Source: Limisphaerales bacterium (GTDB taxonomy: Bacteria > Verrucomicrobiota > Verrucomicrobiia > Limisphaerales > BOG-1460). Taken from it: a stretch of DNA of 46,501 nt. Positions 4,106 to 46,501 of this stretch are shown here, in pieces. The translations under genes were made by a program, and so were the position numbers. The notes under the pieces are model-generated. The model saw nothing but the letters and a program-made list of their open reading frames with translations, had not been told where the DNA came from and ran no database searches. The first letter of the stretch is position 1. Every line of letters starts with the position of its first letter. The DNA lies in assembly GCA_003159675.1 (NCBI GenBank), contig PLQC01000021.1, forward strand, positions 1 through 46,501, in the 5' to 3' direction.

Positions 4106-4110
4106 CACTT

Positions 4111-16213: not shown

Positions 16214-16318
16214 CTCGGGACCGGGTTTCGGCGGTGGCCTGGTTTCAACCGGCGGGTGCGGGGCGGCGCGGCCACCCTACCAATGCCTCCAATGCCCGCG
16301 TTTTCGAGGGCACGCAGA

Positions 16319-16346
16319 GTGCGCTTTTTTCAAGCAGAAATGCCGC
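16319..16346 (+). promoter_or_regulatory. 28-bp motif copy I, upstream of GH28 at 16447
   Basis: Blocks GTGC, TCAA and TGCC (last base changed) at the standard 11-bp steps, with a T6 run ending in the middle block. It ends 100 bp before the ATG of the second GH28 gene and lies in the only sizeable gap of this stretch (16214-16446). Confidence 0.6.
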
Positions 16347-16446
16347 GCGCCAGAGTGGAAAGGCTTTGGAAACTGCGGCCTGGCGGGTAACAATCAAATG
16401 CTGCAATTGGTTGGTTGATGCACTGACATCTCTTTGGAACACGACG

Positions 16447-19074: not shown

Positions 19075-19102
19075 GTGCACAAAACTCACAGAGATGTGCA
19101 GA
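19075..19102 (+). promoter_or_regulatory. 28-bp motif copy F, upstream of uxaE
   Basis: Blocks GTGC, TCAC (one change) and TGCA followed by GA, at 11-bp steps. This copy lacks the usual T-run and has AAAAC instead, which helps show that the three blocks, not AT-richness, are what is conserved. It ends 65 bp before the start codon of uxaE. Confidence 0.65.
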
Positions 19103-19167
19103 ATCTTGGGATTCTTTATGGAAAAAACGGGGTTACGATGGGATGACGTTTAATAAAGCTTAGTTTT

Positions 19168-20478: not shown

Positions 20479-20483
20479 TCGTT

Positions 20484-21974
20484 ATGAAATTCATTCACGA
20501 GGATTTTCTCCTGCAAACGCGGACGGCGCGCCGGCTCTATCATCACTATGCCGAGGCGGAACCGATCCTGGATTTCCACTGTCATCTGTCGCCGCGGGAC
20601 ATCGCCGAGAACCGCCAGTTCAAGAACCTGTTTGAAATCTGGCTGGAAGGGGATCATTACAAGTGGCGGGCCATGCGCTCGAATGGGGTCGCCGAGCGCT
20701 TTTGCACGGGAACAGCCGATCCGTTCGCGAAATTCCAGGCCTGGGCCGCCACGGTTCCGCACACCGTCCGCAACCCGCTCTTTCACTGGACGCACCTCGA
20801 ATTGAAGCGTTACTTCGATGTCGAGGAACTGCTGGACGAAGCCAGCGCGGTCCGCATCTGGAAGGAAGCCAATGAGCGGCTGGCCACGCCGGAATTGACA
20901 ACGCAGGGCATCCTGAAAAAATTCGGAGTCAAGGCGCTGTGCACCACGGACGATCCGACCGATGACCTGAAGCTGCACAAGGCCATCGCCGCGTCCAACC
21001 TGGGAACGCAGGTATTCCCCGCATTCCGTCCGGATAAAGCCCTGGGCGTCGATCGGCCGGAGCAGTTCAACCCATGGGTGGACCGGCTCTCCGCGGCCGC
21101 GGACATGGAAATGGATGGTTTCGCGGCTTTCCTGGACGCCTTGCGCGCCCGTCACGACTTTTTCCACAGCGCGGGCTGCCGGCTTTCGGATCATGGCATG
21201 AACCAGTGCTATGCGGACTTCTGCTCCGATAAAACGGCCGCCGCCATCTTTGCCCGGACGCGAAAGGGAAAGCCCGCTTCTCCGGCGGAACACGCGCAAT
21301 TCGCCTCGTTCATGATGCTGTTCTTTGGACGGCTCGATGCCGAAAAGGGCTGGACGAAACAGCTTCATCTTGGCGCGTTGCGGAACAACAACACCCGGTT
21401 GTTGCGCGAGTTGGGCCCCGACACCGGGTTCGACTCCATCGGCGATTTTCCGCAAGCCGCCTCGCTGGCCGTTTATCTGGACCGTCTGGACCGTGAAAAC
21501 GCGCTGCCCAAGACCATCCTCTACAATAATAACCCGGCCGACTACCACGTGTTTGCCACGATGCTGGGGAATTTCCAGGACGGCACGATCCCCGGGAAAA
21601 TCCAGCTCGGTTCCGGGTGGTGGTTTCTCGATCAAAAGGAGGGAATCGAGGGGCAGCTCAACGCGCTGTCCAATCTCGGCCTGCTCTCGCGCTTCGTCGG
21701 CATGGTCACCGATTCGCGCTCGTTCATGTCTTATCCGCGACACGAATACTTCCGGCGTGTGCTCTGCAACCTCATCGGGCGCGACGTGGAAAGCGGTGAA
21801 ATTCCCGATGACGACATGTTGTTGGGCCCGATGATCCGAAACATCTGTTACTCGAATGCGAAGCAGTACATGGCGTTGCCGGAACCGGTGGCAGATTCCA
21901 ATGGCGACCGGCGCAAACGAGCGGCCGCCCGATCCAACGGGGAATCGGCGCTGCGCCGCGCCAACAAGCATTGA
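20484..21974 (+). CDS. uxaC: Glucuronate/galacturonate isomerase
   Basis: 496 residues. It isomerises D-galacturonate to D-tagaturonate (and D-glucuronate to D-fructuronate) in the cytoplasm. It belongs to the amidohydrolase-like fold: the N-terminal ILDFHCHLSP (His32 and His34) is the first metal motif, and KALCTTDDPTDDL, HLGALRNNNTR, LYNNNPADY and the C-terminal FVGMVTDSRSF are strongly conserved in UxaC. ATG 20484 is chosen because the family N-terminus MKFIHEDFLL starts there, five bases after uxaE. The last ~30 residues are basic, Ser/Ala/Arg-rich and look like a non-conserved extension. Confidence 0.96.
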   Translation: MKFIHEDFLLQTRTARRLYHHYAEAEPILDFHCHLSPRDIAENRQFKNLFEIWLEGDHYKWRAMRSNGVAERFCTGTADPFAKFQAWAATVPHTVRNPLFHWTHLELKRYFDVEELLDEASAVRIWKEANERLATPELTTQGILKKFGVKALCTTDDPTDDLKLHKAIAASNLGTQVFPAFRPDKALGVDRPEQFNPWVDRLSAAADMEMDGFAAFLDALRARHDFFHSAGCRLSDHGMNQCYADFCSDKTAAAIFARTRKGKPASPAEHAQFASFMMLFFGRLDAEKGWTKQLHLGALRNNNTRLLRELGPDTGFDSIGDFPQAASLAVYLDRLDRENALPKTILYNNNPADYHVFATMLGNFQDGTIPGKIQLGSGWWFLDQKEGIEGQLNALSNLGLLSRFVGMVTDSRSFMSYPRHEYFRRVLCNLIGRDVESGEIPDDDMLLGPMIRNICYSNAKQYMALPEPVADSNGDRRKRAAARSNGESALRRANKH

Positions 21975-22059: not shown

Positions 22060-23148
22060 ATGAAGACGAAGCAAGGTTTGAATATCCGGAAGAACGCCGC
22101 GCTGGACTTTGTCTCCCTGGGCGCCCTGGTGCATCGCCTGGATACAGGAATCATCCCGTTCCGCAAGGCGACCCACTGCGACATCCACGTCAGCGGGGGT
22201 GAGTTTAACGTGGCCGCGAATCTGTCCGACTGTTTCGGGTTGAAGACAGGGATTGCGACCGCGATGGTGGATTATCCGATTGGCGATTTGATTGCCGAGC
22301 GGGTGAGGGCGATGGGGGTGAAGGGCTTTTACAGGAGGTTCAAGCATGATGGCGTTCACGGGCCGAACATGGCGACGGTTTACAGCGACCGGGGCCAGGG
22401 AGTGCGGGCGCCGGTGGTTTTTTACAACCGCTGCAACGAAGCGGCGGCGCAATTGAAGCCGGGGGATTTCAACTGGAAGGAGATCTTCGCCGGCGGCGTC
22501 CGTTGGTTCCACAGCGGAGGAATATTTGCGGCGCTGTCGCCGACGACGGCCGAGGTGATTGTGGAGGCAATGGAAGCGGCCAAAGAGGCCGGGGCGCTGG
22601 TGTCATTTGACCTGAATTACCGCGCGAAACTATGGAATGTCTCCGGGGGCCAGGAGCGCGCGGTGGCGGTGTTGGATCGGATTGTGAAGCGGGTAGACGT
22701 GCTGGTGGGCAACGAAGAGGATTTGCAGATGGGCCTGGGGATTCCCGGACCCGACGTGAAAGCGAAATCGAAGCTGGATCCGAGCGCATTCATCAGCATG
22801 ATGGAGAATGTGCGGAAGAAACATCCGCAGGTGAAGGTGGTGGCGACGACGTTGCGCGAGGTGCATTCGACCAACCGGCACAGTTGGGGCGCGGTGGCGT
22901 GGATCGAGGGCAAGACGCATATGTCGCCGACCTGCGAACTGGAGGTGCTGGATCGGGTGGGGGGAGGGGATGGATTTGCCGCGGGCTTCTTCTACGGGTT
23001 GCTCGCGGGCGAGTCGCTGGAGGACGCCGTGAGACTGGGCTGGGCCCATGGCGCGCTGCTGACGACGTTTCCTGGAGACACGACCATGGCGACGCTGGAG
23101 CAGGTGCGGGCATTTGCCAAAGGCGGTTCGGCGCGGATTCAGCGCTGA
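22060..23148 (+). CDS. kdgK: PfkB-family 2-keto-3-deoxygluconate kinase
   Basis: 362 residues of the ribokinase/PfkB fold. The substrate end motif GGEFNVAANL (near 47-56) and the ATP/anion-hole motif DRVGGGDGF with catalytic Asp304 are clear. In the galacturonate pathway the expected role is phosphorylation of 2-keto-3-deoxygluconate to KDPG, and placement directly after uxaE-uxaC supports this. PfkB substrate specificity is not readable with certainty, and the symbol rests on context. The gap to uxaC is 85 bp without an obvious promoter, so it is probably in the same operon. Confidence 0.82.
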   Translation: MKTKQGLNIRKNAALDFVSLGALVHRLDTGIIPFRKATHCDIHVSGGEFNVAANLSDCFGLKTGIATAMVDYPIGDLIAERVRAMGVKGFYRRFKHDGVHGPNMATVYSDRGQGVRAPVVFYNRCNEAAAQLKPGDFNWKEIFAGGVRWFHSGGIFAALSPTTAEVIVEAMEAAKEAGALVSFDLNYRAKLWNVSGGQERAVAVLDRIVKRVDVLVGNEEDLQMGLGIPGPDVKAKSKLDPSAFISMMENVRKKHPQVKVVATTLREVHSTNRHSWGAVAWIEGKTHMSPTCELEVLDRVGGGDGFAAGFFYGLLAGESLEDAVRLGWAHGALLTTFPGDTTMATLEQVRAFAKGGSARIQR

Positions 23149-23149
23149 A

Positions 23150-23177
23150 GTGCCTTATTTTCAATTTAATTTGCAGA
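23150..23177 (+). promoter_or_regulatory. 28-bp motif copy B, upstream of pectate lyase
   Basis: Blocks GTGC, TCAA and TGCA followed by GA at exact 11-bp steps, with a T-rich left spacer. It begins one base after the kdgK stop codon and ends 107 bp before the ATG of the pectate lyase gene. Confidence 0.7.
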
Positions 23178-23284
23178 ATTGAGGGGCTGACCCATGCCCA
23201 TTCGTTGTGCTACGATGCGCGCATCTTAAACCCTTGACGACAGTTGCGCGGTTTCCACTGCCTTGACGAAATCTCCGAGTTCGT

Positions 23285-26200
23285 ATGAAATCAGCCCTCA
23301 GAATTGCTATTCTCGCCACCGTCCTGACATTCGCCGCCGCCGCGCCAACCGATGCGACGGTGCTGCTGGACGACACGTTTGCTGACGGCACGCGCACCAA
23401 CCAGAACCTGCCGACGGATTCGGCCTGGTTCGTTTCGAGTGCGGCAGATGTGACGATGACAACTGGCAGCATGTCCATCGCAACGCCCAATGGTTCATTT
23501 ATGGGGATCACTTACTTTGCGACCAATTCCTCAAGTCCGGTGCAGTTGTGGATCGGAGACATGCTGACAGCCACGATCACATTCACTTTAAACAATGTTG
23601 CCCCGCTCAACACATCGCAGGGTTTCCGGCTGGGGCTGTTTGATTTTGCCGATTCCACTCTTTCGCCAAAATGGGTGACGGCGGATGGATTCAGCACCAG
23701 TTCACAGGGAACGAATGTTCAAGGTTACGCATTATTTCAAAACATGGGCGTCGCGTTCAATAACGCAACTCCCATGAGTCTTACCAAGCGCACCACCGCA
23801 ACAGACAGTTCCTTGCTGGGGACGAGCGGCGACTGGACTTCGCAAATTAACGGGCCGGGCAACACAAATAATTTCCACGGTTTCGCGAGTGGCGGACAAT
23901 ACTTGCTGCAATTTATGGCGCAGCGCGCCGATGCTGTTTCCCTTGTGCTCACCGTGACCTGGCAAAACCTTGCGAACGGCGCGTCGCTCTCGACCTCGGT
24001 GACCGATAGCGCGGCGTCCACTTTTAATTTTGACGGTATTGCCTTGCGTCCGTCCGGTTCAGGGTCCACGGCGACGAACATTGTGTTCAATGAAGTGCGG
24101 GTCGAACTGGTGCCCTCGGCGACGGCGCCGACCATCACCTCCCAACCGCAGGATCAATCGGTGTTCGCGGGCCAGAACGCCACTTTCAGCGTCATTGCCA
24201 GCGGCAGCGCGCCGTTGAGCTATCAATGGTATTACAACAATGACACGTTGCTGACGAATGCCATCGGCCCTTCGCTGACCATCACCAACGCCTCATTGTC
24301 GGACACAGGCGGATATTCGGTCATTGTCACCAACGCGTATGGTTCCGTGCTCAGCTACAACGCCCAGCTTGTGGTGAGCGTCCCGACCGCGCCCTCGATT
24401 GTCACCCAACCGCAAAGCCAGACCGTGTTGCCCGGGGAAAGCGCCGTTTTCACCGTGGTGGCGGGTGGCAGCGCGCCGTTCAGCTATCAATGGTACTACA
24501 ACACCAACACCGTGCTGACCAACGCGACCAGTGATACGCTGACGTTGACCAATGTCCAGCCGGCCGACGCAGGTTCTTACTCCGTGGTCGTGAGTAATTT
24601 CTTCAGCTCTGCGGCCAGCACCAACGCCATTCTCTCCGTAAATACAAATCCCGTGGCCCCGTCTTTCACCTCTCAACCGCTTTCGCAGATTGTCCTGACG
24701 GGGGGCACCGCCGCCTTCACTGCCACGGTCGTCGGCACCGCGACCATCCTCTATCAGTGGGACAAAAACGGATCGCCGGTTGCGGGCGCGACTTCGTCCA
24801 CCTTGACCTTGACGAACGTGCAGAGCACCGACACCGGCAGTTACACGCTGACCGCTTCGAACAGCGTCGGCGGTGTGACGAGCATGCCGGCGGTTCTGAG
24901 CGTGACGCCCTCGATTCCCGTGGTCAACAGCGCTTACAATCTGGTCGGCTTTGGCCAGAATACAACGGGCGGCGGCGTGCTGCCGAACACGGATCCGAAT
25001 TATGCCCAGGTTTATACCGCCACCGACTTTGCGAATGCGCTCAACAGCAAGACTGTGAAGATCATTGAGATCATGAACGATCTCAATCTGGGCTACAACG
25101 AAATCGAAGCCTCTGCAAAATCCAACAGCGAACCTTTCCGCGCTGCTGCGACACCCCTCCTGCAGCCCGTTTTGCTTCAGACCGGCGTCAGTCTCGTTGA
25201 TATCCAAAAGAAAAACGGCCTGACGATTTTTTCGGCCGGAGGCTCGACCCTCCGGCACGCCAAGTTGAACATCAAGAATTGCGGCAACATCATCATCCGC
25301 AATCTCAAATTCGACCAGCTTTGGGAGTGGGATGAATCGACCAAAGGCCAATACGACAGAAACGACTGGGACTTCATCACTCTGGGCGACGGCGGCGCGG
25401 TGAGCAATATCTGGGTTGATCACTGCACGTTCACGAAATCCTACGACGGCATTCTGGATACCAAGGCCGGCTGCTCAGCGATCACCATTTCGTGGTGCAA
25501 ATACGCCGGTGATGACGGTGCCACCAATACCAACAGTTGGGTGTGGCAGCAGATCAATTATCTTGAACGGAGTCCTTCAAGCTATCCGATGTATAATTTC
25601 CTGCGCACTCGTGGTTTCAGCACCACAAACATCGTCACGATCATGCAGGCGCATGACAAGACCCACTTGGCGGGTCAAAATGATCTCGACCCGAACAACG
25701 CGACCATCTCGATGACTTTCCACCACCTGTGGTTGGGCGTGTGGGATCGCTGCGTGCCGCGTCTGCGCGCCGGCAACGTGCATGATTACAATATCTATGT
25801 GGACGACACATTGGTGCTGGCTGCCAAGCGTCTGCGCGATGCGATTGCGGCCACCATGAGCACAGCCGATCAAAATACACTGAACAACACTTACAGTTTC
25901 GATCCACCCGTCAACGGCAGCATCTCCACAGAAAGCGGCGCACTTCTGCTTGAAAAGTCGGTTTACATTGATTGCCTCTGGCCGCTGCGCAACAATCAGA
26001 CCGATCCTTCGAATCCGGCCTACACTGGAAAAATCCAGGCGCTCGATAGCATTTATCGATTCGACACCACGACCGTGCGCGGGAACAGCACCGACCCCGG
26101 CAACCCGATGGGTCCGTTCCAGGCGCCTCTCATCCCGTTTTCATGGAATTTGCCTGGCAATCAATTGCCTTATTCCTACACCGCGGACGATCCGGCCCAG

Positions 26201-27082
26201 CTTCAAGCTATCGTCACCAGCCCGACGGCCGGCGCCGGCGCCGGAGTCCTCACCTGGGCGAAAACCAACTGGCTGATCACTGCGTATCCACCAACGATGC
26301 CGTTCGTCATTTCCGACCTGCAGAACCAGTCCGTGCCCGTCGGTGACGCCGCCACGTTCGTCGTGGTGGCCGGCGGCTCGGCGCCGCTGTCGTATCAGTG
26401 GTACTTCAACACAAACACACCCATCGCGAACGCCACCAATTCCTTCCTGATGCTGGTCAACGTCCAAACGACCAACGCAGGGTCATACTCCGTCGTCATC
26501 AGCAACACCGCCGGCTCCACCAGCAGCACCAACGCGACGCTCGTCACCTCCCTGCCAAATCATCCGCCCATCCCCGGTGCTTATGCCGTCGCGACGGCCG
26601 AGAACACCCCCGTCTCGATTCCGGTGGCGAATCTATTGGCCGTGGGTTCCGATCCGGACGGTAACGCCTTCAGCGTTTCCGGCGTGCTTCCGTCGAGCAC
26701 CAACAACGGCTCGGCTTCCCTGGGCGGCAATCTGATCGCGTATTCGCCGCCATCGAACTACATCGGCTCCGACCTTTTCAATTACATCCTCACCGACTCA
26801 CTCGGCGCTTCCGCCACCGGCAGCGTGGTTGCGGCGGTGATCTCCTCGAACAACATCGCGCTGAACACGGCTGGAACTCCTTTGTTGTCCGGCGGATTGT
26901 TCCAGGCCTCCTACTTTGGCATCCCGAATCTGACCTATATCATCGACCGATCGACAAACCTGGCCGGGCCGTGGGAGTTGGGCTATACCAATATTACCGC
27001 CGACACCAACGGTCTCTTCCAGGTAATCGATCCGAACAATCCGCCTGCGGCCATGCGGTTTTATCGCGCCCGCTATTGGTGA
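23285..27082 (+). CDS. Giant secreted modular pectate lyase (PL1) with Ig-like domains
   Basis: 1265 residues. Order: signal peptide (1-24); a beta-rich N-terminal domain (25-278) shared with the secreted protein at 40349-41491; three Ig-like modules (about 280, 368 and 458, each with the YQW core); a PL1 pectate lyase beta-helix (about 549-985) with WVDHCTF (709), SYDGILD, FHHLWLGVWDRC and PRLRAGNVH (about 825), whose Arg residues fit the catalytic region; a fourth Ig-like module (about 1002); a cadherin/Big-like domain (about 1092-1180); and a C-terminal module ending AMRFYRARYW. It should cleave de-esterified pectin by beta-elimination outside the cell, the Ig modules acting as spacers or carbohydrate/surface-binding units. 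The unsaturated products would be substrates for the GH105 enzyme. Confidence 0.9.
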   Translation: MKSALRIAILATVLTFAAAAPTDATVLLDDTFADGTRTNQNLPTDSAWFVSSAADVTMTTGSMSIATPNGSFMGITYFATNSSSPVQLWIGDMLTATITFTLNNVAPLNTSQGFRLGLFDFADSTLSPKWVTADGFSTSSQGTNVQGYALFQNMGVAFNNATPMSLTKRTTATDSSLLGTSGDWTSQINGPGNTNNFHGFASGGQYLLQFMAQRADAVSLVLTVTWQNLANGASLSTSVTDSAASTFNFDGIALRPSGSGSTATNIVFNEVRVELVPSATAPTITSQPQDQSVFAGQNATFSVIASGSAPLSYQWYYNNDTLLTNAIGPSLTITNASLSDTGGYSVIVTNAYGSVLSYNAQLVVSVPTAPSIVTQPQSQTVLPGESAVFTVVAGGSAPFSYQWYYNTNTVLTNATSDTLTLTNVQPADAGSYSVVVSNFFSSAASTNAILSVNTNPVAPSFTSQPLSQIVLTGGTAAFTATVVGTATILYQWDKNGSPVAGATSSTLTLTNVQSTDTGSYTLTASNSVGGVTSMPAVLSVTPSIPVVNSAYNLVGFGQNTTGGGVLPNTDPNYAQVYTATDFANALNSKTVKIIEIMNDLNLGYNEIEASAKSNSEPFRAAATPLLQPVLLQTGVSLVDIQKKNGLTIFSAGGSTLRHAKLNIKNCGNIIIRNLKFDQLWEWDESTKGQYDRNDWDFITLGDGGAVSNIWVDHCTFTKSYDGILDTKAGCSAITISWCKYAGDDGATNTNSWVWQQINYLERSPSSYPMYNFLRTRGFSTTNIVTIMQAHDKTHLAGQNDLDPNNATISMTFHHLWLGVWDRCVPRLRAGNVHDYNIYVDDTLVLAAKRLRDAIAATMSTADQNTLNNTYSFDPPVNGSISTESGALLLEKSVYIDCLWPLRNNQTDPSNPAYTGKIQALDSIYRFDTTTVRGNSTDPGNPMGPFQAPLIPFSWNLPGNQLPYSYTADDPAQLQAIVTSPTAGAGAGVLTWAKTNWLITAYPPTMPFVISDLQNQSVPVGDAATFVVVAGGSAPLSYQWYFNTNTPIANATNSFLMLVNVQTTNAGSYSVVISNTAGSTSSTNATLVTSLPNHPPIPGAYAVATAENTPVSIPVANLLAVGSDPDGNAFSVSGVLPSSTNNGSASLGGNLIAYSPPSNYIGSDLFNYILTDSLGASATGSVVAAVISSNNIALNTAGTPLLSGGLFQASYFGIPNLTYIIDRSTNLAGPWELGYTNITADTNGLFQVIDPNNPPAAMRFYRARYW

Positions 27083-29129: not shown

Positions 29130-29157
29130 GTTCTCATTTTTCAAGTAATTATGCAAT
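29130..29157 (+). promoter_or_regulatory. 28-bp motif copy H, upstream of PEP-CTERM gene
   Basis: Blocks GTTC (one change), TCAA and TGCA at exact 11-bp steps, with a T5 run before the middle block. Its inner part (CATTTTTCAAG) is identical to that of copy G on the other strand at 41.6 kb. It ends 77 bp before the start codon. Confidence 0.55.
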
Positions 29158-29234: not shown

Positions 29235-30044
29235 ATGAAACGTTCATACCTAACCGTTCTTACCGTCGGTGCCCTGTGTTTTCTTTTTCAGAGCGCACAA
29301 GCCACACTCCTGTTTTCAGAAGCTTTTAAATATAATACCGGTGTCCTTGGTGGCGATGTTAACCCTGGTAATAGCACAGCTTGGTCCAGTGGCAGCGCCA
29401 ATTTGACCGTTGTTAGCGGCAACCTGACTTATGCAGGTTTGGCGGATCAGGGTGGTAACGAACTTAAGATCAATAACGGAGTATCCGCCGGATCTATTTA
29501 TAATACATTCGCAAATCAGACCAGCGGACAAATCTACTATTCATTCTTGTTTGATCCAACTGCAGTTGACAGTGGCAATAACTATTTCACCGCGATGAAT
29601 CCGGGCACCACCCCCCCGGGTGGCAGCGGCGACGCAATTGATGCTTATTATTATGCTGCCGGTCAGATTGAAGTGCGCGGTGCCGCTCAATCCGCAACCG
29701 CTGGTACCGGCACCGCCTTGTCGCTAAATACGACGTATCTCATCGTTGAAGAAATTGATCTCACTGCAAAGACCGCCAGCCTTTGGGTAGATCCAAACTC
29801 AAGCACCTTTGGTGGTACCGCACCTACGGCAACTGCGAGCCTTTCAAGTCTCACAGCGACAGCGATAGACGATGTAGGGTTCAAAGCTCAAAGCGCCGCG
29901 GGTGGTCCTTATTTGGTTGATAACCTTCTCATTGGCACAACGTGGGCAGATGTAACGCCCTCGGCAGTTCCCGAACCTGCAAGCTTCGCGCTGGCGGGCT
30001 TGGGCATGATCAGTTTGGTTTTCGCGCGCCGGATGCGGCGTTAA
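29235..30044 (+). CDS. PEP-CTERM sorted surface protein
   Basis: 269 residues: signal peptide (about 1-23), a beta-rich Gly/Thr/Ser-rich body without Cys that resembles a LamG/jelly-roll fold, and a textbook PEP-CTERM tail (VPEPASFALAGLGM ... ARRMRR). In this system an exosortase cuts at the PEP motif and moves the protein to the outside, usually linked to exopolysaccharide production. The gene is noticeably more AT-rich than its neighbours. It is monocistronic: motif copy H lies upstream and a strong terminator follows 23 bp after the stop. No exosortase is in the window. Confidence 0.9.
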   Translation: MKRSYLTVLTVGALCFLFQSAQATLLFSEAFKYNTGVLGGDVNPGNSTAWSSGSANLTVVSGNLTYAGLADQGGNELKINNGVSAGSIYNTFANQTSGQIYYSFLFDPTAVDSGNNYFTAMNPGTTPPGGSGDAIDAYYYAAGQIEVRGAAQSATAGTGTALSLNTTYLIVEEIDLTAKTASLWVDPNSSTFGGTAPTATASLSSLTATAIDDVGFKAQSAAGGPYLVDNLLIGTTWADVTPSAVPEPASFALAGLGMISLVFARRMRR

Positions 30045-30942: not shown

Positions 30943-33330
30943 ATGGCTTTATCAAGAGGCCGCGGGCCAGGAACAAGCAGGATTGTTGATTTTCTAATTT
31001 CATCGCGGCATCGGGTTTGGTTGTTTGGCCTCTTCCTGACAGCTATTACGATTATCTCCTACGAACCGGCTTGGAACGGAAAAGCAATTTGGGATGATGA
31101 TGCACACCTTAATCCACCCGGACTGCGTTCACCACAGGGATTGGCACGCATCTGGATCGAACCCGGCGCCACGCAACAGTATTATCCGCTGGTCCATAGC
31201 ATTTTTTGGGTTGAGTACAAACTCTGGGGCAATACAACGCTGGGTTATCATTTAATTAATATTTTGCTGCACGCCTTTTCAGCCCTGCTGTTATGGACAA
31301 TTCTACGGCGGTTGGAGGTTCCGGGAGCTCATTGGGCAGCGGCCATTTTCGCCCTGCACCCCGTCTGCGTGGAGTCGGTGGCCTGGATCTCGGAAATCAA
31401 GAACACGTTGTTGGGGGCATTTTATCTGGGCGCGGCGCTGGTTTATTTGAGATTTGACCGGACCAGAAACTGGAAGTTTTATTTCGTGACTTTGGGGCTG
31501 TTCGTGTTGGGGTTGATGTCCAAGACTATTATTGCGACCCTGCCTGCGGCGTTGCTGGTGGTTTTCTGGTGGCAACGCGGAAAGTTGTCCTGGAAACAGG
31601 ATGTATTACCGCTGATTCCATTTTTTGCGGTGGGTATTGGTGCCGGGTTGTTCACGGCGTGGGTGGAATGGAAATTTGTTGGCGCGAGCGGTTCCGGGTA
31701 TAATTTCCCCATCATTGATCGGTTGCTCATCGCGGGGCGCGCGATTTGGTTCTATTTGGGCAAGCTCGTCTGGCCCGTGGATTTGACTTTTATCTATCCC
31801 CGCTGGCATGTCAGCCAGGCGGTGTGGTGGCAATACCTTTTTCCTATCACGGCACTGCTGGTGTCGGTGGGGTTGTGGTTGCTTTCACGCCGAAATCGCG
31901 CGCTGCTGGCGGCATGGCTCTTTTTTGTTGGAACGTTGTTCCCAGCACTGGGCTTTTTCAATGTCTATCCCTTTTGTTATTCGTTCGTAGCTGATCACTT
32001 TCAGTATTTGGCCAGTATTGGCCCGATCACATTGGCTGCGGCAGGAATCGCCATATTATTCCGTTCTTTAATGAACAAGCAACAATTCCTTGAACCCATT
32101 ATTTGCGGAACACTGCTATTGGTGTTGGGTGTATCGAGTTGGCGACAGAGTGGAATGTACCCCAACATTGAAACCCTCTGGCGGACGACGATCTCCAGGA
32201 ACCCGGATTGCTGGCTGGCTAACAACAATCTGGGCGGTTACTTGTATAATAAAGGGCACATTAAAGAAGCTATAGAACACTACCAGAAGGCCATCCAGAT
32301 TGATCCGAATTACGCCGAGGCGCAGAACAATCTGGGTGCCGCCCTCGCCGCCGAAGGGCGGTTTGATGAAGCAATCGGGAACTATCACAAAGCCATCCAG
32401 ATCAGTCCGAATTTCGCCTATGCGCTGAACAATTTGGGCATGGCTTTGGCCGCCCGAGGCCAGTTCGATGACGCGATCGAGAACTATCGCAAGGCCATCC
32501 AGATCAGTCCGAATTTCGCCGATGCGCTGGACAATCTGGGTGCTGCCCTTACCGTCAAGGGCAGGTTTGATGAAGCGCTTGGGTATTATCGCCAGGCTCT
32601 TGCGATTGACCCCAACTTTGCGGGAGCACAAAACAACCTGGGAATTCTGCTGGCCAAGCAGGGCCAAATCACTGAAGCCATCGAGTATTACCAGAAAGCC
32701 ATTGAACTCAATCCTAATCGCGCAGAATTTTACAATAATCTGGGCAACCTGCTTGCCATTCAGGGGCGGCCGGCCGAGGCGATCAGGCAATTCCAGAAAG
32801 CCCTTGCAGTTGAACCGGACTATACCAAGGCGCACTACAACTTGGCCGATATATTCTTCGCCCAAGGACGGTGGGGCGAGGCCATTGAACAATATCAACG
32901 GGCTTTGGAACAGATGCCAGACTCCACTCATGCTCACTATCAATTGGGACTTCTGCTGCAAAGTCGGGGGGAATTTGCAGCGGCAATCACACAGTTTCAG
33001 AAAATTCTTGAACTTGATCCCCGGCACGTGGCGGCTCAAAACAATCTGGCGTGGCTGCTGGCAACCTGTCCGGAGGCATCGCTGCGGGACGGGAAGAGGG
33101 CGGTTGGATTGGCGCGACAGGCCGAAGAGCTTTCGGGCGGCAAGTCCCCGGAGATCCTGGACACCCTGGCGGTGGCCTATGCCGAGGCCGGAGACTTTGA
33201 CAATGCGATCGCCGCCGCCAAACGGATGCTGACCATGGCCGCCGCTCGGAACGACACACTCCTGGCTGAAGCCGTCACCAACCGGCTCAGGCTTTATGAA
33301 GCCCACATCCCATACCATGAAACGCCTTAG
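30943..33330 (+). CDS. TMTC-like GT-C membrane protein with ten-odd TPRs
   Basis: 795 residues. Residues 1-425 hold about ten membrane helices with the TMTC/GT-C landmarks AIWDDDAHLN in the first outer loop and ALHPVCVESVAWISEIKNTL. Residues about 430-790 are tandem 34-residue TPRs (repeating NNLGxxLxxxGxxxEAIxxYxKAIxIxPN) plus a more diverged C-terminal pair. Animal TMTC proteins with this architecture are O-mannosyltransferases (GT105), so this one may transfer a sugar from a lipid carrier to exported proteins, the TPRs binding the acceptor. That function is inference. A second, shorter family member lies 126 bp downstream in the same orientation and a dead one lies upstream. Confidence 0.82.
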   Translation: MALSRGRGPGTSRIVDFLISSRHRVWLFGLFLTAITIISYEPAWNGKAIWDDDAHLNPPGLRSPQGLARIWIEPGATQQYYPLVHSIFWVEYKLWGNTTLGYHLINILLHAFSALLLWTILRRLEVPGAHWAAAIFALHPVCVESVAWISEIKNTLLGAFYLGAALVYLRFDRTRNWKFYFVTLGLFVLGLMSKTIIATLPAALLVVFWWQRGKLSWKQDVLPLIPFFAVGIGAGLFTAWVEWKFVGASGSGYNFPIIDRLLIAGRAIWFYLGKLVWPVDLTFIYPRWHVSQAVWWQYLFPITALLVSVGLWLLSRRNRALLAAWLFFVGTLFPALGFFNVYPFCYSFVADHFQYLASIGPITLAAAGIAILFRSLMNKQQFLEPIICGTLLLVLGVSSWRQSGMYPNIETLWRTTISRNPDCWLANNNLGGYLYNKGHIKEAIEHYQKAIQIDPNYAEAQNNLGAALAAEGRFDEAIGNYHKAIQISPNFAYALNNLGMALAARGQFDDAIENYRKAIQISPNFADALDNLGAALTVKGRFDEALGYYRQALAIDPNFAGAQNNLGILLAKQGQITEAIEYYQKAIELNPNRAEFYNNLGNLLAIQGRPAEAIRQFQKALAVEPDYTKAHYNLADIFFAQGRWGEAIEQYQRALEQMPDSTHAHYQLGLLLQSRGEFAAAITQFQKILELDPRHVAAQNNLAWLLATCPEASLRDGKRAVGLARQAEELSGGKSPEILDTLAVAYAEAGDFDNAIAAAKRMLTMAAARNDTLLAEAVTNRLRLYEAHIPYHETP
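32287..32592 (+). repeat. 102-bp tandem DNA repeats encoding TPRs
   Basis: Units starting at 32287, 32389 and 32491 share the opening AAGGCCATCCAGAT with an exact 102-bp period (34 codons). The second and third are nearly identical over their first 50 bp, indicating recent duplication of TPR units. Confidence 0.85.
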
Positions 33331-35245: not shown

Positions 35246-35273
35246 GTGCACTATTATCAAATTCATTCGCACA
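35246..35273 (+). promoter_or_regulatory. 28-bp motif copy D, upstream of third GH28 gene
   Basis: Blocks GTGC, TCAA and CGCA (one change) at exact 11-bp steps. It ends 45 bp before ATG 35319, the closest spacing of the set. It lies within the longest possible open frame of that gene, an argument for the later start. Confidence 0.6.
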
Positions 35274-35318
35274 AGTTTTAATTTCCCATGCCGGGCGCTC
35301 GGGCTATCCTTGGACGCA

Positions 35319-36741: not shown

Positions 36742-36769
36742 GTGCACTTTTTTCAATTTTATTTGCAGA
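36742..36769 (+). promoter_or_regulatory. 28-bp motif copy C, upstream of pseudopilin gene
   Basis: Blocks GTGC, TCAA and TGCA followed by GA, with a T6 run: the closest match to the consensus. It begins seven bases after the GH28 stop codon and ends 90 bp before ATG 36860. Confidence 0.7.
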
Positions 36770-36859
36770 CTGGACCTGTTGCCTGACGCACTTCCCGGGA
36801 TTACCTTGGTACCAGCAAACACAGCTTATATCGAATCGGCCCGGACAAACCCGAAGTTT

Positions 36860-37735
36860 ATGGATTCAGAAATCGACCTTTCGACCCATCAGGCGTCTTT
36901 CGCGCCTGGCCAGCGAGGCACCTCGCGTCGTTCACTCAGATCGCTCAACGCGTTCACTCTCATCGAATTGCTCGTCGTAATCGCCATCATTGCGATCCTG
37001 GCTGCGTTGCTCCTTCCCGCTCTATCGAAAGCCAGAGCCAAAGCGTACCAGGCCAACTGTCTCTCCAATTTCAGGCAGATGGGGGCCGCGTTGCGGATGC
37101 GTATCGATGACAACGACGACTGGCTTCCGCCGGGTCCGATTACTCCGACCACGAGTCCGACCTGTCTTGCCGTGGATCAGACACCCACCTATGCAAGTCC
37201 GCTCAACAGCTCCTCGAATTATAGAAAGTGGCTGCCTTATTATCTGGCGACATATCTGAACCTGCCGGCGCCTACCGATTTGAGTGCCACGGACGTTAAG
37301 GCGGTCAAGGTCTTCATTTGTCCCGGCTATGCCAGAGGCATGCCCGGGAACGCTGTCAACGGCAGCTATCGCCCCGATATAGACAACAACCCCGCTCCCT
37401 ACGCCCACGCATTTTGTTACTCGGTGACGAGAACGAATGACTACCCGAATTCGCTGCTTGCCTCTCACGGTCTTGGAATGCCATTCGGCAAAGAAAATGC
37501 AGCGGCTCCATGGGATCAACCCATCAAATTGTCCCAGCTCCAGAGCGCAGGTTCACCGAGCGATATCTGGGCGGTCGCAGACATTGATACGAATTGTCTG
37601 GCCACTCCGACTTCGGTGGGCACCGATCTTCCTTATATGGCGAAAAATGCGGTCCATGGCGGCAACATCCGGAATTTCCTCTATTTCGATTTCCATGCCG
37701 CGTCCAGGCAGGTGCCCACGACGAGCGCGTACTGA
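36860..37735 (+). CDS. Type II secretion/pilin-like protein with prepilin signal
   Basis: 291 residues. A basic leader is followed by the prepilin N-terminal methylation motif [24 protein letters not shown] (cleavage before the Phe expected), a long amphipathic helix ([17 protein letters not shown]) and a globular domain. The C-terminus has [15 protein letters not shown], a variant of the H-X9-DG element common to large pseudopilin families in Verrucomicrobiota and Planctomycetota; here the Gly is Phe. Such proteins are thought to form pseudopili or surface fibres that aid secretion or substrate binding. ATG 36860 is preferred over a TTG at 36779. The shared motif upstream suggests co-expression with the pectinases. 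Confidence 0.85.
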
Positions 37736-40348: not shown

Positions 40349-41491
40349 TTAGGGACTGGAGATTCGGTAGAAGCTCGAACTTGCAGTGGCAGTCGTGTCC
40401 GTCCACGAGAGCGAAGTTCTCAGGGAGCCTCCGACTGGATAGCCTGTGACAAGCACGGGCCAGGAAGAGGAGGGCGCTGTTGCGGTTCCCAGGGCGTTTG
40501 TCCTCAACACGCTGTAGCTGTAGCCGGCGCTGGCGTTCCACGTGATGATATTCGTGCCCGCATTGAGCCGCGCGATATGGGTGATCTGCGGCGCGGCTGG
40601 CACGATGGGAAGCACGTCCACTTCGAACGAGGTGAGTTGGAACCCTGCCGCGGTTACGCTGGAAGCACCCGGGCGAATTGCAAACGTGTCGAAGTTGGTG
40701 TACGCGTAATTTGTGTCTGTGACGGTTTGCGTGATAGCCCCGTTGGTAAGCCCGGTTCCGATGACAGTCGTGCTGATCGTGGTGGTGTTTGTGGCAGTAT
40801 GGGCCACGGTTAAAATCAAGGTATAAGGGATATTGTCTCCAAAGCCGGGGTCGTTCGTAGTCCCACCACCGTTACCACCAACTTGGTCGGCATCCGACGT
40901 TGTTTGAAACAGGCTGTCACCGTCGTCATTATTCACATTGGTAAATGCAAGAATCTGCAGCGGGGCCACATTGAAAAAGTCTGCCATCTGCATGTTTTGA
41001 GCGTAACCCAGGAGCCCTATTTGCCGGATGCTCGACCCGGTGCCGTTCGTAAAGGGCAATTGGAGGGGTCCCGCGTAGACGATCCCCCAGCGAAATCCGC
41101 GATGGGTGGAGACGATTGCTTGAGGCTGCACATTCGAGAAGGTGAGAGTTGCAACCGTCCGAATCTGCTGGCCCACCGCGAGGGAGACTTGATCGTTTGT
41201 ATCCAGGTTGTTGGTATCTGTAAAATAATTCCACAGCGTAAGAGAACCTCCCGACGAGGGCGCCGTAAAGAAGAGCGATCCGCTCAGCCCATAGTATGCG
41301 CTGTCTTTTGAAGACGACCAGCCGACGGTATAGGGCAGGTTTTGATTCGTCTGGAGGATGCTGTAATTGGTGCCGGTGTCGGGCCAGTTTGTTTGGTTGA
41401 CAATGACGGTGGCTGATACGGCCAGTGTTGAACCGAGCAGAGCCAGGAGGGTCAGGAGTTTTGGGGCTACTTTTTTCATACGGTCAGTCAT
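40349..41491 (-). CDS. Secreted protein sharing the pectate lyase N-terminal domain
   Basis: 380 residues: signal peptide (LLTLLALLGSTLAVSA), a ~270-residue beta-rich domain and a C-terminal ~75-residue module ending SSSFYRISSP. The main domain matches residues 25-278 of the pectate lyase at 23285: QTNQNLPYTVGWSSS aligns with RTNQNLPTDSAWFVSS near the start, and TNFDTFAIRPGASS with FNFDGIALRPSGSG near the end, followed by EVDVLP and RVELVP. No enzyme motif is visible, so it may be a binding or surface-attachment protein; it has no PEP-CTERM tail. The start could be 41491 or the Met four codons later. Motif copy G lies 146 bp upstream on the same strand, and a good terminator follows. Confidence 0.8.
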   Translation of the reverse strand: MTDRMKKVAPKLLTLLALLGSTLAVSATVIVNQTNWPDTGTNYSILQTNQNLPYTVGWSSSKDSAYYGLSGSLFFTAPSSGGSLTLWNYFTDTNNLDTNDQVSLAVGQQIRTVATLTFSNVQPQAIVSTHRGFRWGIVYAGPLQLPFTNGTGSSIRQIGLLGYAQNMQMADFFNVAPLQILAFTNVNNDDGDSLFQTTSDADQVGGNGGGTTNDPGFGDNIPYTLILTVAHTATNTTTISTTVIGTGLTNGAITQTVTDTNYAYTNFDTFAIRPGASSVTAAGFQLTSFEVDVLPIVPAAPQITHIARLNAGTNIITWNASAGYSYSVLRTNALGTATAPSSSWPVLVTGYPVGGSLRTSLSWTDTTATASSSFYRISSP

Positions 41492-41637
41492 TAATTGTTA
41501 TGCAAACCCACTCCTGAGGGGCGAGCCGTCCCAATAATTTGATCCACGCTCAGACAGGAATCCGGTTTGTTCATCGCTTTTCGCTTTGGTCACCCAAATT
41601 TATATCAGATGCCGGTGCCAATCGTCAGCCCCTTTTT

Positions 41638-41665
41638 GTTGCAAACATGCTTGAAAAATGGGCAC
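41638..41665 (-). promoter_or_regulatory. 28-bp motif copy G, between secreted protein and XylR-type regulator
   Basis: On the minus strand: GTGC, TCAA and TGCA at exact 11-bp steps with a T5 run. It ends 146 bp before the start of the minus-strand secreted protein and is also 136 bp before the divergent regulator gene, so it could control either or both. The rest of this ~310-bp gap shows no other feature. Confidence 0.65.
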
Positions 41666-41801
41666 TCAAAGCGCGCGCATTAGGAATTGTAACCCCCGCG
41701 GTGCCTGAAAACCCACATAACACGGCCCATTTGCTTCAATTGTCCGCCTCCATCCCGCCGCGGCCAATCCGCCGGCGCCCGACCGTTTCCGTTAAAAACA
41801 G

Positions 41802-42986
41802 TTGAAAAGGATTCCGAGACGATTCAGTTTCTTCCCTGTGACGGGTAATACCCAAAAACGAGTGTTGGTGGCCTTGGGCTGGTACGATTACCGGTTGCAT
41901 CGGGGCATCGAGAAATTCGCACTGGAACATGGCTGGCATTTGTCCTCGAATCTGGCGCGGGAAAAGGTCATCCCCTGGGGCTGGGAGGGAAGCGGTATCC
42001 TGGCGTGGCTCGGGGCCGGGGACGACCTGGCCGACTTTGTGGTGCACGCCGGGAAGCCGACGGTGGATTTCAGCTTCCGCCGGCCGCAACTGAAGTTTGC
42101 CCGCGTGCTGGAGGATCACGCCCAGGCCGCGCAATTGGTCGCCGAACATTTTCTCTCGCGCGGCTTTCACCATTTCATGTTCTACAGCGACACGGACAAC
42201 TGGTCGTACGAGGAGCGGGGCTACGGGTTCATCGAGGCGCTGAAACGTTCCGGGCACAGTTGCCTGTGGCTGCGGTGGCATCTGTCTCCGTCCTATCGGG
42301 ACGACCGGGAACAATGGAAACGGAAACGCAAGTGGCTGGTTTCCCAGTTGAAACCCGCCGCCAAGCCGCTGGCGGTTTTCGCCGCCACCGACGAGCAGGC
42401 GCTCGACGTGCTGGATTGCTGTGAAAGCGCCGGGTTGACGGTCCCCGAACAGGTCGCCATCGTCGGAGCCGAGAACTATCTCCTGGCCCCGGACGCCATG
42501 CGCACTCCGGTTTCGAGCGTGGATACCAACCTGGAGACGCTCGGCTACAACGGCGCCGCCTTGCTGCAAGATTTGATGAATGGCAAACGCCCTCCCGAAA
42601 AGCCGATTCGCATCGCTGCCGCCGGCATCATCACGCGCAAAAGCAGCGACCTCCTGGCGATCCAGCACAAGGGCGTCGCCAACAGCCTCCGTTTCATCTG
42701 GGAACATGCCGACCAACCCATCACCGTCAAGGACCTCGTCGGCGTGGCGGCGATGTCGCGCCGGGGATTGCACAAGGCGTTTCTCGAGAATGTGGGACGC
42801 ACCCCCGGCCAGGAACTTCAACGGGTGCGGATCGAACGCGCCAAACGATTGCTGGCCGAATCCAGCCACAAGCTCGAGGTGCTCGCCAGCCTTTGCGGTT
42901 ATCAGAGCGCCAACAGCTTCTGTGTGGCGTTCAAGCAGGCGACCGGGATGTCGCCCAAACAATTCCGCGAGAGCGTGGTGCATTGA
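41802..42986 (+). CDS. XylR-type transcription regulator (PBP-like sensor + AraC HTH)
   Basis: 394 residues. Residues about 18-285 form a periplasmic-binding-protein-like sensor as in LacI/XylR regulators (VLVALGWYDYRLHRGIEKFALEH at the start, PEQVAIVGAENYLL and SSVDTNLETLGYNGA in the second half). Residues about 290-394 are an AraC-type double helix-turn-helix ending with the family signature (LCGYQSANSFCVAFKQATGMSPKQFR). Such proteins sense a sugar and usually activate catabolic genes. The ligand here is unknown, but a pectin-derived sugar or uronate would fit the neighbourhood. The frame starts at TTG 41802; GTG 41838 is an alternative start just before the sensor, and no clear ribosome-binding site settles it. 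Motif copy G is in its upstream region. Confidence 0.88.
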   Translation: MKRIPRRFSFFPVTGNTQKRVLVALGWYDYRLHRGIEKFALEHGWHLSSNLAREKVIPWGWEGSGILAWLGAGDDLADFVVHAGKPTVDFSFRRPQLKFARVLEDHAQAAQLVAEHFLSRGFHHFMFYSDTDNWSYEERGYGFIEALKRSGHSCLWLRWHLSPSYRDDREQWKRKRKWLVSQLKPAAKPLAVFAATDEQALDVLDCCESAGLTVPEQVAIVGAENYLLAPDAMRTPVSSVDTNLETLGYNGAALLQDLMNGKRPPEKPIRIAAAGIITRKSSDLLAIQHKGVANSLRFIWEHADQPITVKDLVGVAAMSRRGLHKAFLENVGRTPGQELQRVRIERAKRLLAESSHKLEVLASLCGYQSANSFCVAFKQATGMSPKQFRESVVH

Positions 42987-43019: not shown

Positions 43020-46000
43020 TCACACCGCCGGGGCCAATTCACCCGCCCTCTGGGGACGCGCCACGGCGACTCGCCGTTTGAGATGTTCCAAAGCCAGGTA
43101 AATCACCGGCGTCGTATATAACGTCAGCGCCTGTGAGAACAGCAGGCCGCCGACGACGGCAATCCCCATCGGCTGCCGCAATTCCGACCCCGTCCCAATA
43201 CCGAGCGCGAGCGGCAGACTGCCCAGCAGCGCCGCCATTGTCGTCATCATGATGGGCCGGAATCGAATCACGCAGGCCTTGTAAATCGCCTCCTCGGGAC
43301 TCAATTTCTCGCGGCGTTCGGCCTCGACGGCGAAGTCCACCATCATGATGGCGTTTTTCTTCACGATGCCCATGAGCAGGATGATGCCGATGAAGGAGAC
43401 GAGGGAAAGGTCATAGCCGCACACGATCAGCGCGAGCAAGGCACCGACTCCCGCCGAAGGAAGCGTGGACAGGATTGTGAGCGGATGAATCAAACTTTCG
43501 TAGAGCATGCCCAGGACGATATAGACCGTGATCAAGGCGGCGCTGAACAGAAGAGGCATGTTGGCCAGGGATGCCTTGAACACCTGTGCCGTGCCCTGGA
43601 AGCTGCCTTGCACGTCCGCCGGCATCCTCAACTCCTCCGTTGCCCGTTGGATCAACCCGGTTGCCTGTCCCAACGACACCCCCGATGCGAGGTTGAAAGA
43701 AAGCGTGACTGCGGGGAACTGTCCCTGGTGATTGACGGACAGGTAGGCGTTGCCGGGTTCGAAGCGGGCGAGGCTGGACAGCGGAACCTCGACCCCATTG
43801 GTGGAGGCAACGTAAATCTTGTCGAGCGCCGCCGGGTCCGACTGGAACTTCGGGTCCACCTCGAGGATGACGTGGTGCTCGTTGTATCGCTGGTAAATGA
43901 TCGAGACCTGGCGCTGGCCGAAGGCATCGTACAGGGCGTTGTCCACCGCCTGCGGCGAGACCCCGAGACGCGCGGCCCTGTCGCGGTCGATATCGACGTT
44001 TGCCTGCAACCCGCCGGTCTGCTGGTCGCTGGTGACGTCCTTCAATTGCGGGATCTGACGGAGCTTGGCCACCAGCGCATCGGACCAATGGTTCAGGTCG
44101 TTCAGATCGGCGGACGTCAGGGCGTATTGATATTGGGCCTTGCTGAGCCGGCCGCCCACCCGGATGTCCTGCACCGGTTGGAGGAACAACGTGATCCCTT
44201 CGAGGCGGCCCAGTTTGCGGCGCAACCGATTGATGACCTCGTCCACGCGGACCTTTCTCTGTCTAAGGGGTTTCAGCGCGATGAACATTCGCCCGTTGTT
44301 GACGGTGGAGCTGCCGGAAGCCGCCCCGATGAACGAACCGAGCGTGTCCACCGCGGGGTCGGCGAGCACGATTCGGGCGACCTTGTTCTGGAGCGCCGCC
44401 ATGGCGTCGAAAGAGATGTCCTGTGAGGCCTCGGTGATCCCGATCATCAAGCCCGTGTCCTGTTGGGGAAAGAACCCCTTGGGCACGATCAGGTAGAGCC
44501 AGATGGTGACGATGAACGTGACCAGCGCCACCAGGAGCATGAAGGGCTGATGGCGCAGGACCCATCGGAGCCCGCGTTCATAGCGGCTCAACAAGCCGTT
44601 GAACGCCCCTTCGCAAGCCCGGTAAAAAATCCCGGGCTTGCCGTACGCCGACTCCGCCCGCAGGAATCGCGAGCACATCATCGGCGTCAGCGTCAGGGAA
44701 ATCACGCCGGACACCAGGATCGCCAGACTGAGGGTCACGGCGAACTCGTGAAACAGGCGCCCGATCAATCCGCCCATGAACAACAGCGGAATAAACACCG
44801 CCACCAGCGAGGTGCTCATCGAGACGACGGTGAAGCCGATCTGCCGCGCGCCCTTGAGCGCCGCCTGCATCGTGGACTCGCCCTGTTCGATGAACCGATA
44901 GACATTCTCGATCACCACGATGGCGTCATCCACCACGAACCCGACCGAGATGGTGATGGCCATCAGGGAAAGATTGTCGAGGCTGTAGTGGAGCAGGTAC
45001 ATGAAACCCATCGTCCCGGCTATTGCCAGCGGCACGGTGTTGCTCGCGATGAACGTCGGCCAGAAGCGCCTCAGAAAGAGGAAGATCACCATCACCACCA
45101 GCGCGCAGGTCAACAGGAGCGAAAATTGCACGTCCGCGAACGAGGCCCGGATGGTGGTCGTGCGGTCGCTGATTTGCGACACCTTGATCCCCGGCGGAAT
45201 CCATCTCTCGATCTGCGGCAGCACCGCGTGGATGCGATCCACGGTGTCGATGACGTTGGCGCCCGCCTGCTTGAAAATGATCACCAGCACCGCCGGCGTG
45301 GTCCCCGCCCATCCCGCCAGTTTGTCGTTCTCCACGCCTTCGATGACGTGGCCGATCGCGTCGAGCCGGATGGGCACGCCGTGTTTCTGGGTCAGGATGA
45401 GCGAACGATAATATCGGGCGTCGGCGATCTGGTCGTTGCTTTCAATCGTGTAAGACCGGGTGCGGCCGTCGAAACTACCCTTCGGGGAATCCACGTTCGC
45501 CTGGCCGAGAAAGCTGCGCACATCCTCGAGGCCCAGGCCTGTCGATGCCAGCGCGGCGGGGTTGACCTGGACACGGACGGCGGATTTTTCCGCGCCGCTG
45601 ATGATCGCCTGGCTGACCCCTTCCACCTGGCTCAGGCGCTGCCCGACAATCTCGTCGGCGTATTCGAAAACCTGCGTGGGCGGCAGCGTGTCGCAAGTCA
45701 TGGCCAGCACCAGGATCGGCGCGTCCGCGGGATTGATTTTGCGGTACGTCGGCGGGCTCGGCAGGGCCAGCGGCAGATCGCCCGCGGCCGCGCTGATGGC
45801 CGCCTGCACGTCGCGGGCCGCCCCGTCGATGCTGCGGCTCAAATCGAACTGGATGGTCACCGAAGTGCCGCCCAGCGTGCTGATCGAGGTCATCTCCGAC
45901 ACGCCCGCAATTTGTCCCAGGCGCTTTTCCAGCGGCGCCGCCACCGACGACGCCATGGTGGCGGGGTCCGCTCCCGGCAGCGATGCGGAAACGGAGATGA

Positions 46001-46136
46001 CCGGATAATCCACGCGCGGAATCGGGGCGACGGGCAGAAACCGGTAGGCCACGATGCCCATCAGGAACAGGCCGATGGCCAGCAACGACGTGCCGACGGG
46101 GCGGCGGATGAATGGCTCGGAAATGTTCATGGCCAT
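43020..46136 (-). CDS. RND efflux transporter, MdtC/MdtB-like
   Basis: 1038 residues, the full RND length, with twelve membrane helices in two halves and two large periplasmic domains. Landmarks are the N-terminal ISEPFIRRPVGTSLL, the TM4 proton-relay pair in GFVVDDAIVVIENVYR (Asp-Asp), and NAIMMVDFAVEAERR and [22 protein letters not shown] in the second half. It is an inner-membrane proton-driven pump for hydrophobic or amphipathic compounds, working with a periplasmic adaptor and an outer-membrane channel. The ATG directly follows the stop of the upstream RND gene, so the two are coupled and probably form an MdtBC-type heteromultimer. It converges with the XylR-type gene with 33 bp between their ends. 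Confidence 0.95.
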   Translation of the reverse strand: MAMNISEPFIRRPVGTSLLAIGLFLMGIVAYRFLPVAPIPRVDYPVISVSASLPGADPATMASSVAAPLEKRLGQIAGVSEMTSISTLGGTSVTIQFDLSRSIDGAARDVQAAISAAAGDLPLALPSPPTYRKINPADAPILVLAMTCDTLPPTQVFEYADEIVGQRLSQVEGVSQAIISGAEKSAVRVQVNPAALASTGLGLEDVRSFLGQANVDSPKGSFDGRTRSYTIESNDQIADARYYRSLILTQKHGVPIRLDAIGHVIEGVENDKLAGWAGTTPAVLVIIFKQAGANVIDTVDRIHAVLPQIERWIPPGIKVSQISDRTTTIRASFADVQFSLLLTCALVVMVIFLFLRRFWPTFIASNTVPLAIAGTMGFMYLLHYSLDNLSLMAITISVGFVVDDAIVVIENVYRFIEQGESTMQAALKGARQIGFTVVSMSTSLVAVFIPLLFMGGLIGRLFHEFAVTLSLAILVSGVISLTLTPMMCSRFLRAESAYGKPGIFYRACEGAFNGLLSRYERGLRWVLRHQPFMLLVALVTFIVTIWLYLIVPKGFFPQQDTGLMIGITEASQDISFDAMAALQNKVARIVLADPAVDTLGSFIGAASGSSTVNNGRMFIALKPLRQRKVRVDEVINRLRRKLGRLEGITLFLQPVQDIRVGGRLSKAQYQYALTSADLNDLNHWSDALVAKLRQIPQLKDVTSDQQTGGLQANVDIDRDRAARLGVSPQAVDNALYDAFGQRQVSIIYQRYNEHHVILEVDPKFQSDPAALDKIYVASTNGVEVPLSSLARFEPGNAYLSVNHQGQFPAVTLSFNLASGVSLGQATGLIQRATEELRMPADVQGSFQGTAQVFKASLANMPLLFSAALITVYIVLGMLYESLIHPLTILSTLPSAGVGALLALIVCGYDLSLVSFIGIILLMGIVKKNAIMMVDFAVEAERREKLSPEEAIYKACVIRFRPIMMTTMAALLGSLPLALGIGTGSELRQPMGIAVVGGLLFSQALTLYTTPVIYLALEHLKRRVAVARPQRAGELAPAV

Positions 46137-46501
46137 TCAGCCCCCGGGCGTTGCTGCAACCCCGCCCGGCGCACCCGCCGCCGCCACAGACCCCGCCGTC
46201 CGCCAGCGCCGAACCCGGTTCCCGAACCGGTCGAGGTAAAGGTAGATCACCGGCGTCGTGTAGAGCGTCAGGAATTGCGAGAATAACAGGCCGCCTACGA
46301 TGGCAATGCCCATGGGACGGCGCAATTCCGAACCGTTGCCGTGCTCCAACGCCAGCGGCAGCGCGCCAAGCAACGCCGCCATCGTCGTCATCATGATCGG
46401 GCGGAACCGCAGCAGGCACGCCTGGTAAATGGACTTCTCAGGCGGCAACCCCTCGTTGCGCTCGGCGTCGAGCGCAAAATCGATCATCATGATCGCGTTC
46501 T
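46137..46501 (-). CDS. RND efflux transporter, C-terminal fragment at window edge
   Basis: 121 C-terminal residues of a second RND pump; the gene continues beyond the window. It begins in the conserved [15 protein letters not shown] region, followed by [34 protein letters not shown], matching the same segment of the downstream pump closely, and ends in a Gly/Ala/Pro-rich tail. The stop codon touches the start of the next gene. Its pairing with a full-length paralogue points to an MdtB-MdtC style arrangement; the adaptor gene would be expected further upstream. Confidence 0.93.

Follow-up and report, generated by a model that had tools for sequence, protein, structure and literature searches.

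The regulator gene and its surroundings

The locus considered here raises the question of which protein reads a sequence motif that recurs in front of its pectin genes. The original prediction proposed, from proximity, a sugar-sensing regulator encoded beside one of the motif copies. The window, that is, the whole stretch of DNA analyzed (46,501 bp), takes up the first 46.5 kb of a contig 54.5 kb long, from a draft genome of 4.11 Mb. The domains of the regulator, the motif, its repeat geometry and promoter position, and its co-occurrence, co-location and co-variation with the regulator were computed. Taken jointly, the results go beyond the argument from proximity and make it highly probable that this protein serves locally as the dedicated reader of the motif, binding in tandem and most likely acting as a sigma70 activator in response to a pectin-derived sugar acid. 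The features at the regulator gene are as follows:

41838–42986, plus strand: XylR-like regulator with a LacI-type sugar-sensor domain and an AraC-type double HTH; the ORF opens at TTG 41802
40349–41491, minus strand: predicted secreted protein (hydrophobic N-terminus read from the sequence), predicted target of motif copy G
41637–41665, minus strand: motif copy G, predicted operator directed toward 40349–41491; 41640–41665 with 0 mismatches; R1 model E = 1.3e-4
41623–41628, minus strand: putative −35 hexamer CTGACG adjoining copy G (−35-like hexamers are enriched at this offset in 87 sites)
41599–41604, minus strand: putative −10 hexamer TATAAA adjoining copy G (from the site alignment)

The ORF and Pfam evidence agrees with the predicted divergent arrangement of the regulator ORF (41802–42986) and the secreted-protein gene, and copy G, which shows no mismatch to the consensus, does lie within the gap between them. 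Pfam scans of the main ORFs are likewise in accord with the description of this protein as the only sugar-responsive transcription factor of the window. Its length is 382–394 aa, depending on whether GTG 41838 or TTG 41802 is taken as the start; the former appears more likely because most orthologues carry ATG at query residue 14. Pfam revealed Peripla_BP_3 (8e-31), HTH_18 (1.8e-20) and HTH_AraC (3e-14) domains. Accordingly, the feature characteristic of the AraC/XylS family was present, a C-terminal domain some 100 residues long that carries two HTH motifs (HTH_18), with helices predicted in it, and the Peripla_BP_3 sensor followed by the AraC HTH across the full length corresponds to the XylR-type hybrid. 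The mean pLDDT of the predicted fold was 87. Named relatives of the regulator were found mainly in Verrucomicrobiota MAGs (subdivision 3, Limisphaerales, Pedosphaera), and relatives with 59–85% identity were present throughout the order. Downstream, at 43020–46499, two neighboring genes for AcrB-type RND transporters lie on the minus strand and converge with the regulator gene; between them there is a 260-bp repeat (D2, 75% identical).

The repeated motif and its copies

The motif recovered from the repeats of the window (family D6) and a consensus scan was GTGCANWWTTTTCAANNNNNTTTGCANAA. The scan pattern GTGCNNWTTTTTCAANNNNNTTTGCA, with up to 3 mismatches allowed, gave 7 matches in the window against 0.03 expected, and of the 8 matches in the whole genome, 7 were inside the window. 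The profile model R1 was in agreement, as its top seven genome matches were all within the window, and the PWM additionally detected an eighth, weaker window copy. Besides copy G, the following copies were found:

10903–10931, plus strand: upstream of the GH28 polygalacturonase-family gene 11086–13326
16319–16344, plus strand: weaker copy between the pectinesterase end (16213) and the GH28 domain of ORF 16036–17787; R1 E = 0.09
19075–19103, plus strand: weak copy upstream of uxaE (19168), found by the PWM only
23150–23178, plus strand: upstream of the gene of a pectate-lyase/Ig-domain protein, 23285–27082
29130–29156, plus strand: upstream of the gene of a PEP-CTERM protein, 29235–30044
35246–35274, plus strand: upstream of a GH28 gene (ATG 35319)
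36742–36769, plus strand: upstream of a prepilin-like (N_methyl) gene (ATG 36860)

For the prepilin-like gene, the TTG at 36779 that was listed as its start is better taken as part of a −35 hexamer, TTGCCT. At the two weak copies, 16319 and 19075, convincing −35/−10 elements were absent. Plain-pattern matches of the form GTGCGANTTTTTCAATCC..TTGGCA in several regulator-free genomes were rejected; they apparently represent a conserved coding stretch and disappeared at the threshold of the profile model. The sequence GTGCGAATTTTTCAATCCGCTTGGCA, which is near-identical to the motif pattern, was also found in regulator-free genomes (e.g., G069:C163:8125 and G099:C363:6487); it likewise resembles conserved coding sequence and is a false positive of the plain pattern.

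Predicted targets and ligand

Further genes of the pectin locus were assigned by Pfam:

15203–16213, plus strand: pectinesterase
17304–19010, plus strand: GH88 unsaturated-uronide hydrolase family protein
19168–20478, plus strand: UxaE tagaturonate epimerase
20142–21974, plus strand: UxaC uronate isomerase
22060–23148, plus strand: PfkB-family sugar kinase, a KDG kinase candidate

Within this locus, an ORF at 13526–14923 matched DruA (PF14236) and a DDE transposase-associated domain and is probably a mobile element. Elsewhere in the window, an ArsR-methyltransferase fusion located beside S-adenosylmethionine synthetase and S-adenosylhomocysteine hydrolase forms a methionine-cycle cluster (1760–5574), and 102-nt repeats with 102-nt spacing occur within a TPR protein (32252–32761).

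The genes behind the window copies encode GH28 and pectate-lyase/Ig proteins, UxaE (weak copy), and prepilin-like and PEP-CTERM proteins, while the Pfam scan gave no match for the 40349–41491 protein. Across genomes, 97 motif-downstream genes were collected, among which 16 encoded GH28, 11 UxaE, 3 PfkB, 2 UxaC and 1 a pectinesterase; the predicted targets of the regulator are thus pectin/galacturonate genes. The commonest single class consisted of prepilin-like genes (N_methyl, some with DUF1559), with 20 of the 97 in relatives as well as 36742–37735 in the window, a raw frequency, uncorrected for background, that hints at pilin-like surface proteins in the pectin response.

A galacturonate-type ligand is the best guess from this gene context because the motif-downstream genes include GH28, UxaE, PfkB, UxaC and pectinesterase genes. 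It is possible, although clearly less likely, that the effector is an oligosaccharide or a pectin sugar other than galacturonate, for example rhamnose: GH39, GH43 and GH42 genes also stand behind some motif copies, but the assigned metabolic targets are predominantly UxaE, UxaC, GH28, pectinesterase and PfkB, and no rhamnose pathway genes were identified in the window.

Site architecture and orientation

Alignment of 87 distinct sites revealed that the TGCANAA half-site is repeated at 21 bp, with the box TTTTCAA after the first half, and a shift of 21 bp gave the highest direct-repeat self-similarity of the motif. A −35-like TTGNCA occupied columns 39–44 and a −10-like TA was located at about columns 61–63; the best −35 fell at columns 38–40 in 53 of the 87 sites, compared with 7.2 ± 2.6 for shuffles. 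Judging from the alignment, a 21-bp direct repeat stands just upstream of sigma70-like −35/−10 elements, an arrangement that matches activator sites of the AraC family. A palindromic reading was also considered and rejected: local symmetry outscored the 21-bp repeat in self-comparison but was limited to the initial portion of the site. Tandem binding is favored because of the 21-bp repeat and the constant orientation toward the target gene. At orthologous loci, 24 of 25 upstream copies pointed away from the regulator gene, and all 13 downstream copies pointed to the next gene. Since the copies face away from the regulator, they would serve its neighbors; autoactivation is not indicated, and the autoregulation suggested for this class in the original prediction found no support.

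According to the proposed mechanism, two monomers of the regulator would occupy the motif in tandem, one on each of its direct TGCANAA half-sites, whose spacing of 21 bp, equal to two helical turns, would place them on one face of the DNA. The distal half-site would bear the second box, TTTTCAA. Because the proximal half-site would end close to the −35 hexamer, the bound regulator would most likely activate sigma70 RNA polymerase upon binding galacturonate or a near product. The genes controlled in this way would be those of pectin depolymerases, the galacturonate pathway and the surface proteins beside the regulator.

Binding of the regulator as a repressor released by the sugar is unlikely. 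LacI-like sensor domains are frequent in repressors, and a protein bound beside the −35 could block polymerase; however, an AraC-type HTH combined with a site just upstream of the −35 fits activators, and repressor sites more often lie over −10/+1. In addition, the closest solved relative, E. coli XylR, is an activator according to the title of Song and Park 1997, as cited in PMC2873477.

Co-occurrence and co-location of the regulator and the motif

Co-occurrence was assessed in 320 genomes of the order, with thresholds of E ≤ 1e-100 for the regulator and E ≤ 0.01 for the motif model R1. The association between orthologue and motif was strongly positive: both were present in 47 genomes, the regulator only in 5, the motif only in 6 and neither in 262 (Fisher p = 9e-44). 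Genomes also used for model building contributed 33 of the 134 order-wide motif matches, and when these genomes were left out, the corresponding numbers were 37, 3, 6 and 262 (p = 6e-38); these p values overstate independence because the genomes are related. The regulator and the motif were jointly present or absent within families as well (e.g., f22 and f26).

The motif without the regulator, which would have argued against the original prediction, was thus confined to six genomes, with approximately three chance motif matches expected at the threshold (320 × 0.01). Two of them, G086 and G218, contained pieces of the orthologue (78% and 89% identity, respectively) ending at contig ends, whereas in G109, G147, G215 and G234, two of which are 69% complete, no close orthologue was retained, and their number is about that expected by chance. 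All five regulator-only genomes held a weaker motif (E from 0.017 to 0.07), in four cases on the contig of the regulator itself; in the control at this looser level, a match was found in 2 of 10 genomes. Contig ends, genome incompleteness and the expected number of chance matches thus account for most of the exceptions.

The consensus derived from the source genome alone matched beside orthologues in G005, G017, G020, G057 and G059. The PWM built from 19 orthologue loci detected 43 sites, with 0 in reversed sequence, and in 79 named loci it gave 78 matches where the orthologue was at least 59% identical, against 0 in the reversed controls, and 3 matches at relatives of 52–56% identity. The latter group belongs mainly to Opitutae, together with Chthoniobacter and two Planctomycetota MAGs. 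In relatives, the motif was often located within 400 bp of the regulator gene, while in many held-out genomes it was found on contigs other than that of the regulator (78 matches); adjacency is therefore common but not universal.

These data bear on the two alternatives that had been considered equally possible, namely, another AraC protein and a sigma factor, and both come out weak: C30 and C129 do not track with the motif, and the motif lies upstream of −35/−10-like elements. That another AraC-family protein reads the motif, the regulator being merely its neighbor, is very improbable. The site geometry says only "AraC family", and the genome encodes six other HTH_18 proteins (seven in 4.11 Mb). 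However, C30, a PocR-type protein and the closest by DNA-binding domain, had orthologues in 13 of the 320 genomes, with the motif in 1 of these 13, and C129 had orthologues in 7, with the motif in 5; with orthologues in so few genomes, these two proteins cannot serve the 53 genomes with the motif (this test covered C30 and C129 and left out C170, C182, C118 and C58). The Peripla_BP sensor was absent from all five other HTH_18 proteins scanned by Pfam (two PocR types, one Ada/methyltransferase type and two others; C170, of 1025 aa, was left out), and it is the orthologues of the XylR-like regulator that repeatedly have the motif within 400 bp. The least credible reading takes the motif for a promoter element recognized by an alternative sigma factor rather than for an activator site. 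This would suit the directionality of the motif and its fairly short distance upstream of genes, but ordinary −35/−10-like hexamers stand downstream of it at fixed offsets, it holds the 21-bp direct repeat, and its presence tracks one regulator gene.

Co-variation of the regulator and the motif

The phylogenetic tree separated clade A, which contains the regulator of the window, from clades B, C and D and from a group of 22 sequences, the relatives of 52–56% identity. The site consensus varied by clade; for example, clade A sites have GGTGC, and clade D sites have GTTGC and end in GAAA or CAAA. Around the 52–56% relatives, the motif was nearly absent (2 of 22 loci), and most of these proteins carried changes in the recognition helices, from MSRRGLHKAF to MSERGLRQAF and from GYQSANSF to GYPNLNSF; in Chthoniobacter flavus, SRRGLH was kept and a variant site was still present. 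Re-estimation of the motif on the matches of this group yielded 3 sites in the 22 loci, a number too small to define a separate consensus. Motif variants that follow the regulator clades are what would be expected of a reader and an operator evolving together.

Thus, strong comparative evidence indicates that the XylR-like regulator would read a repeated switch placed before the promoters of pectin-eating genes. In a broader sense, the Verrucomicrobiota XylR-like clade may act as the master activator for growth on pectin/galacturonate across the order, with an operator co-varying with the recognition helices, and may also switch on prepilin-like and anchored surface proteins, linking these to pectin uptake; the chances for and against this extension seem to us evenly balanced. 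In other phyla, the master-activator role for pectin/galacturonate use belongs to unrelated regulator families. Very little of the regulation of polysaccharide use in Verrucomicrobiota has been mapped, and among the papers searched, no operator or regulon was found described for a pectin regulator in this phylum. The regulator, operator, promoter geometry and target list now form one testable unit, and the motif can be used to place genes in the pectin response, for example, those of the secreted protein 40349–41491 and prepilin-like proteins.

Comparison with known systems

Known hexuronate regulators include ExuR/UxuR (GntR family), KdgR (IclR family) and the galacturonate regulators of the LacI family, whose operators are, as a rule, palindromic. 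They would share a metabolic purpose with the regulator studied here but belong to other protein families.

With respect to the site, the closest likeness is to AraC at araBAD, where the direct half-sites of I1-I2 are 21 bp apart and adjoin the −35, as in the Verrucomicrobiota motif. When the PWM was applied to the E. coli araB-araC gap, the best position was araI1-I2 in the araB orientation, although its score of 0.4 bits was far below the threshold. The half-site letters differ (TAGC for AraC versus TGCA for the Verrucomicrobiota motif), the −35 is about 2–3 bp farther downstream in the Verrucomicrobiota sites, and the sensor of AraC is a cupin arm domain, in contrast to the LacI/XylR-type sensor of the regulator.

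With respect to the protein, homology to E. coli XylR (4fe4, 4fe7), which combines a LacI-type sensor with an AraC-type HTH, extends over the full length of the regulator (profile E = 3.9e-48). The predicted fold of the regulator had 4fe4 as the best Foldseek/PDB match (E = 8.6e-23, TM 0.64), with about 21% identity in the structural alignment. The gene context is that of xylose in E. coli and of pectin/galacturonate here; neither a location at xylose genes nor the operator of E. coli XylR was found for the regulator, and the scan of the E. coli xylA-xylF gap gave no good match to the Verrucomicrobiota motif. Because pectin genes surround the regulator and the xylose promoter region of E. coli lacks the motif, the protein was assigned as a XylR-type AraC-family regulator and not as the xylose regulator itself. 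Together with its motif, it represents not a new kind of system but a new regulator–operator pair of a familiar type.
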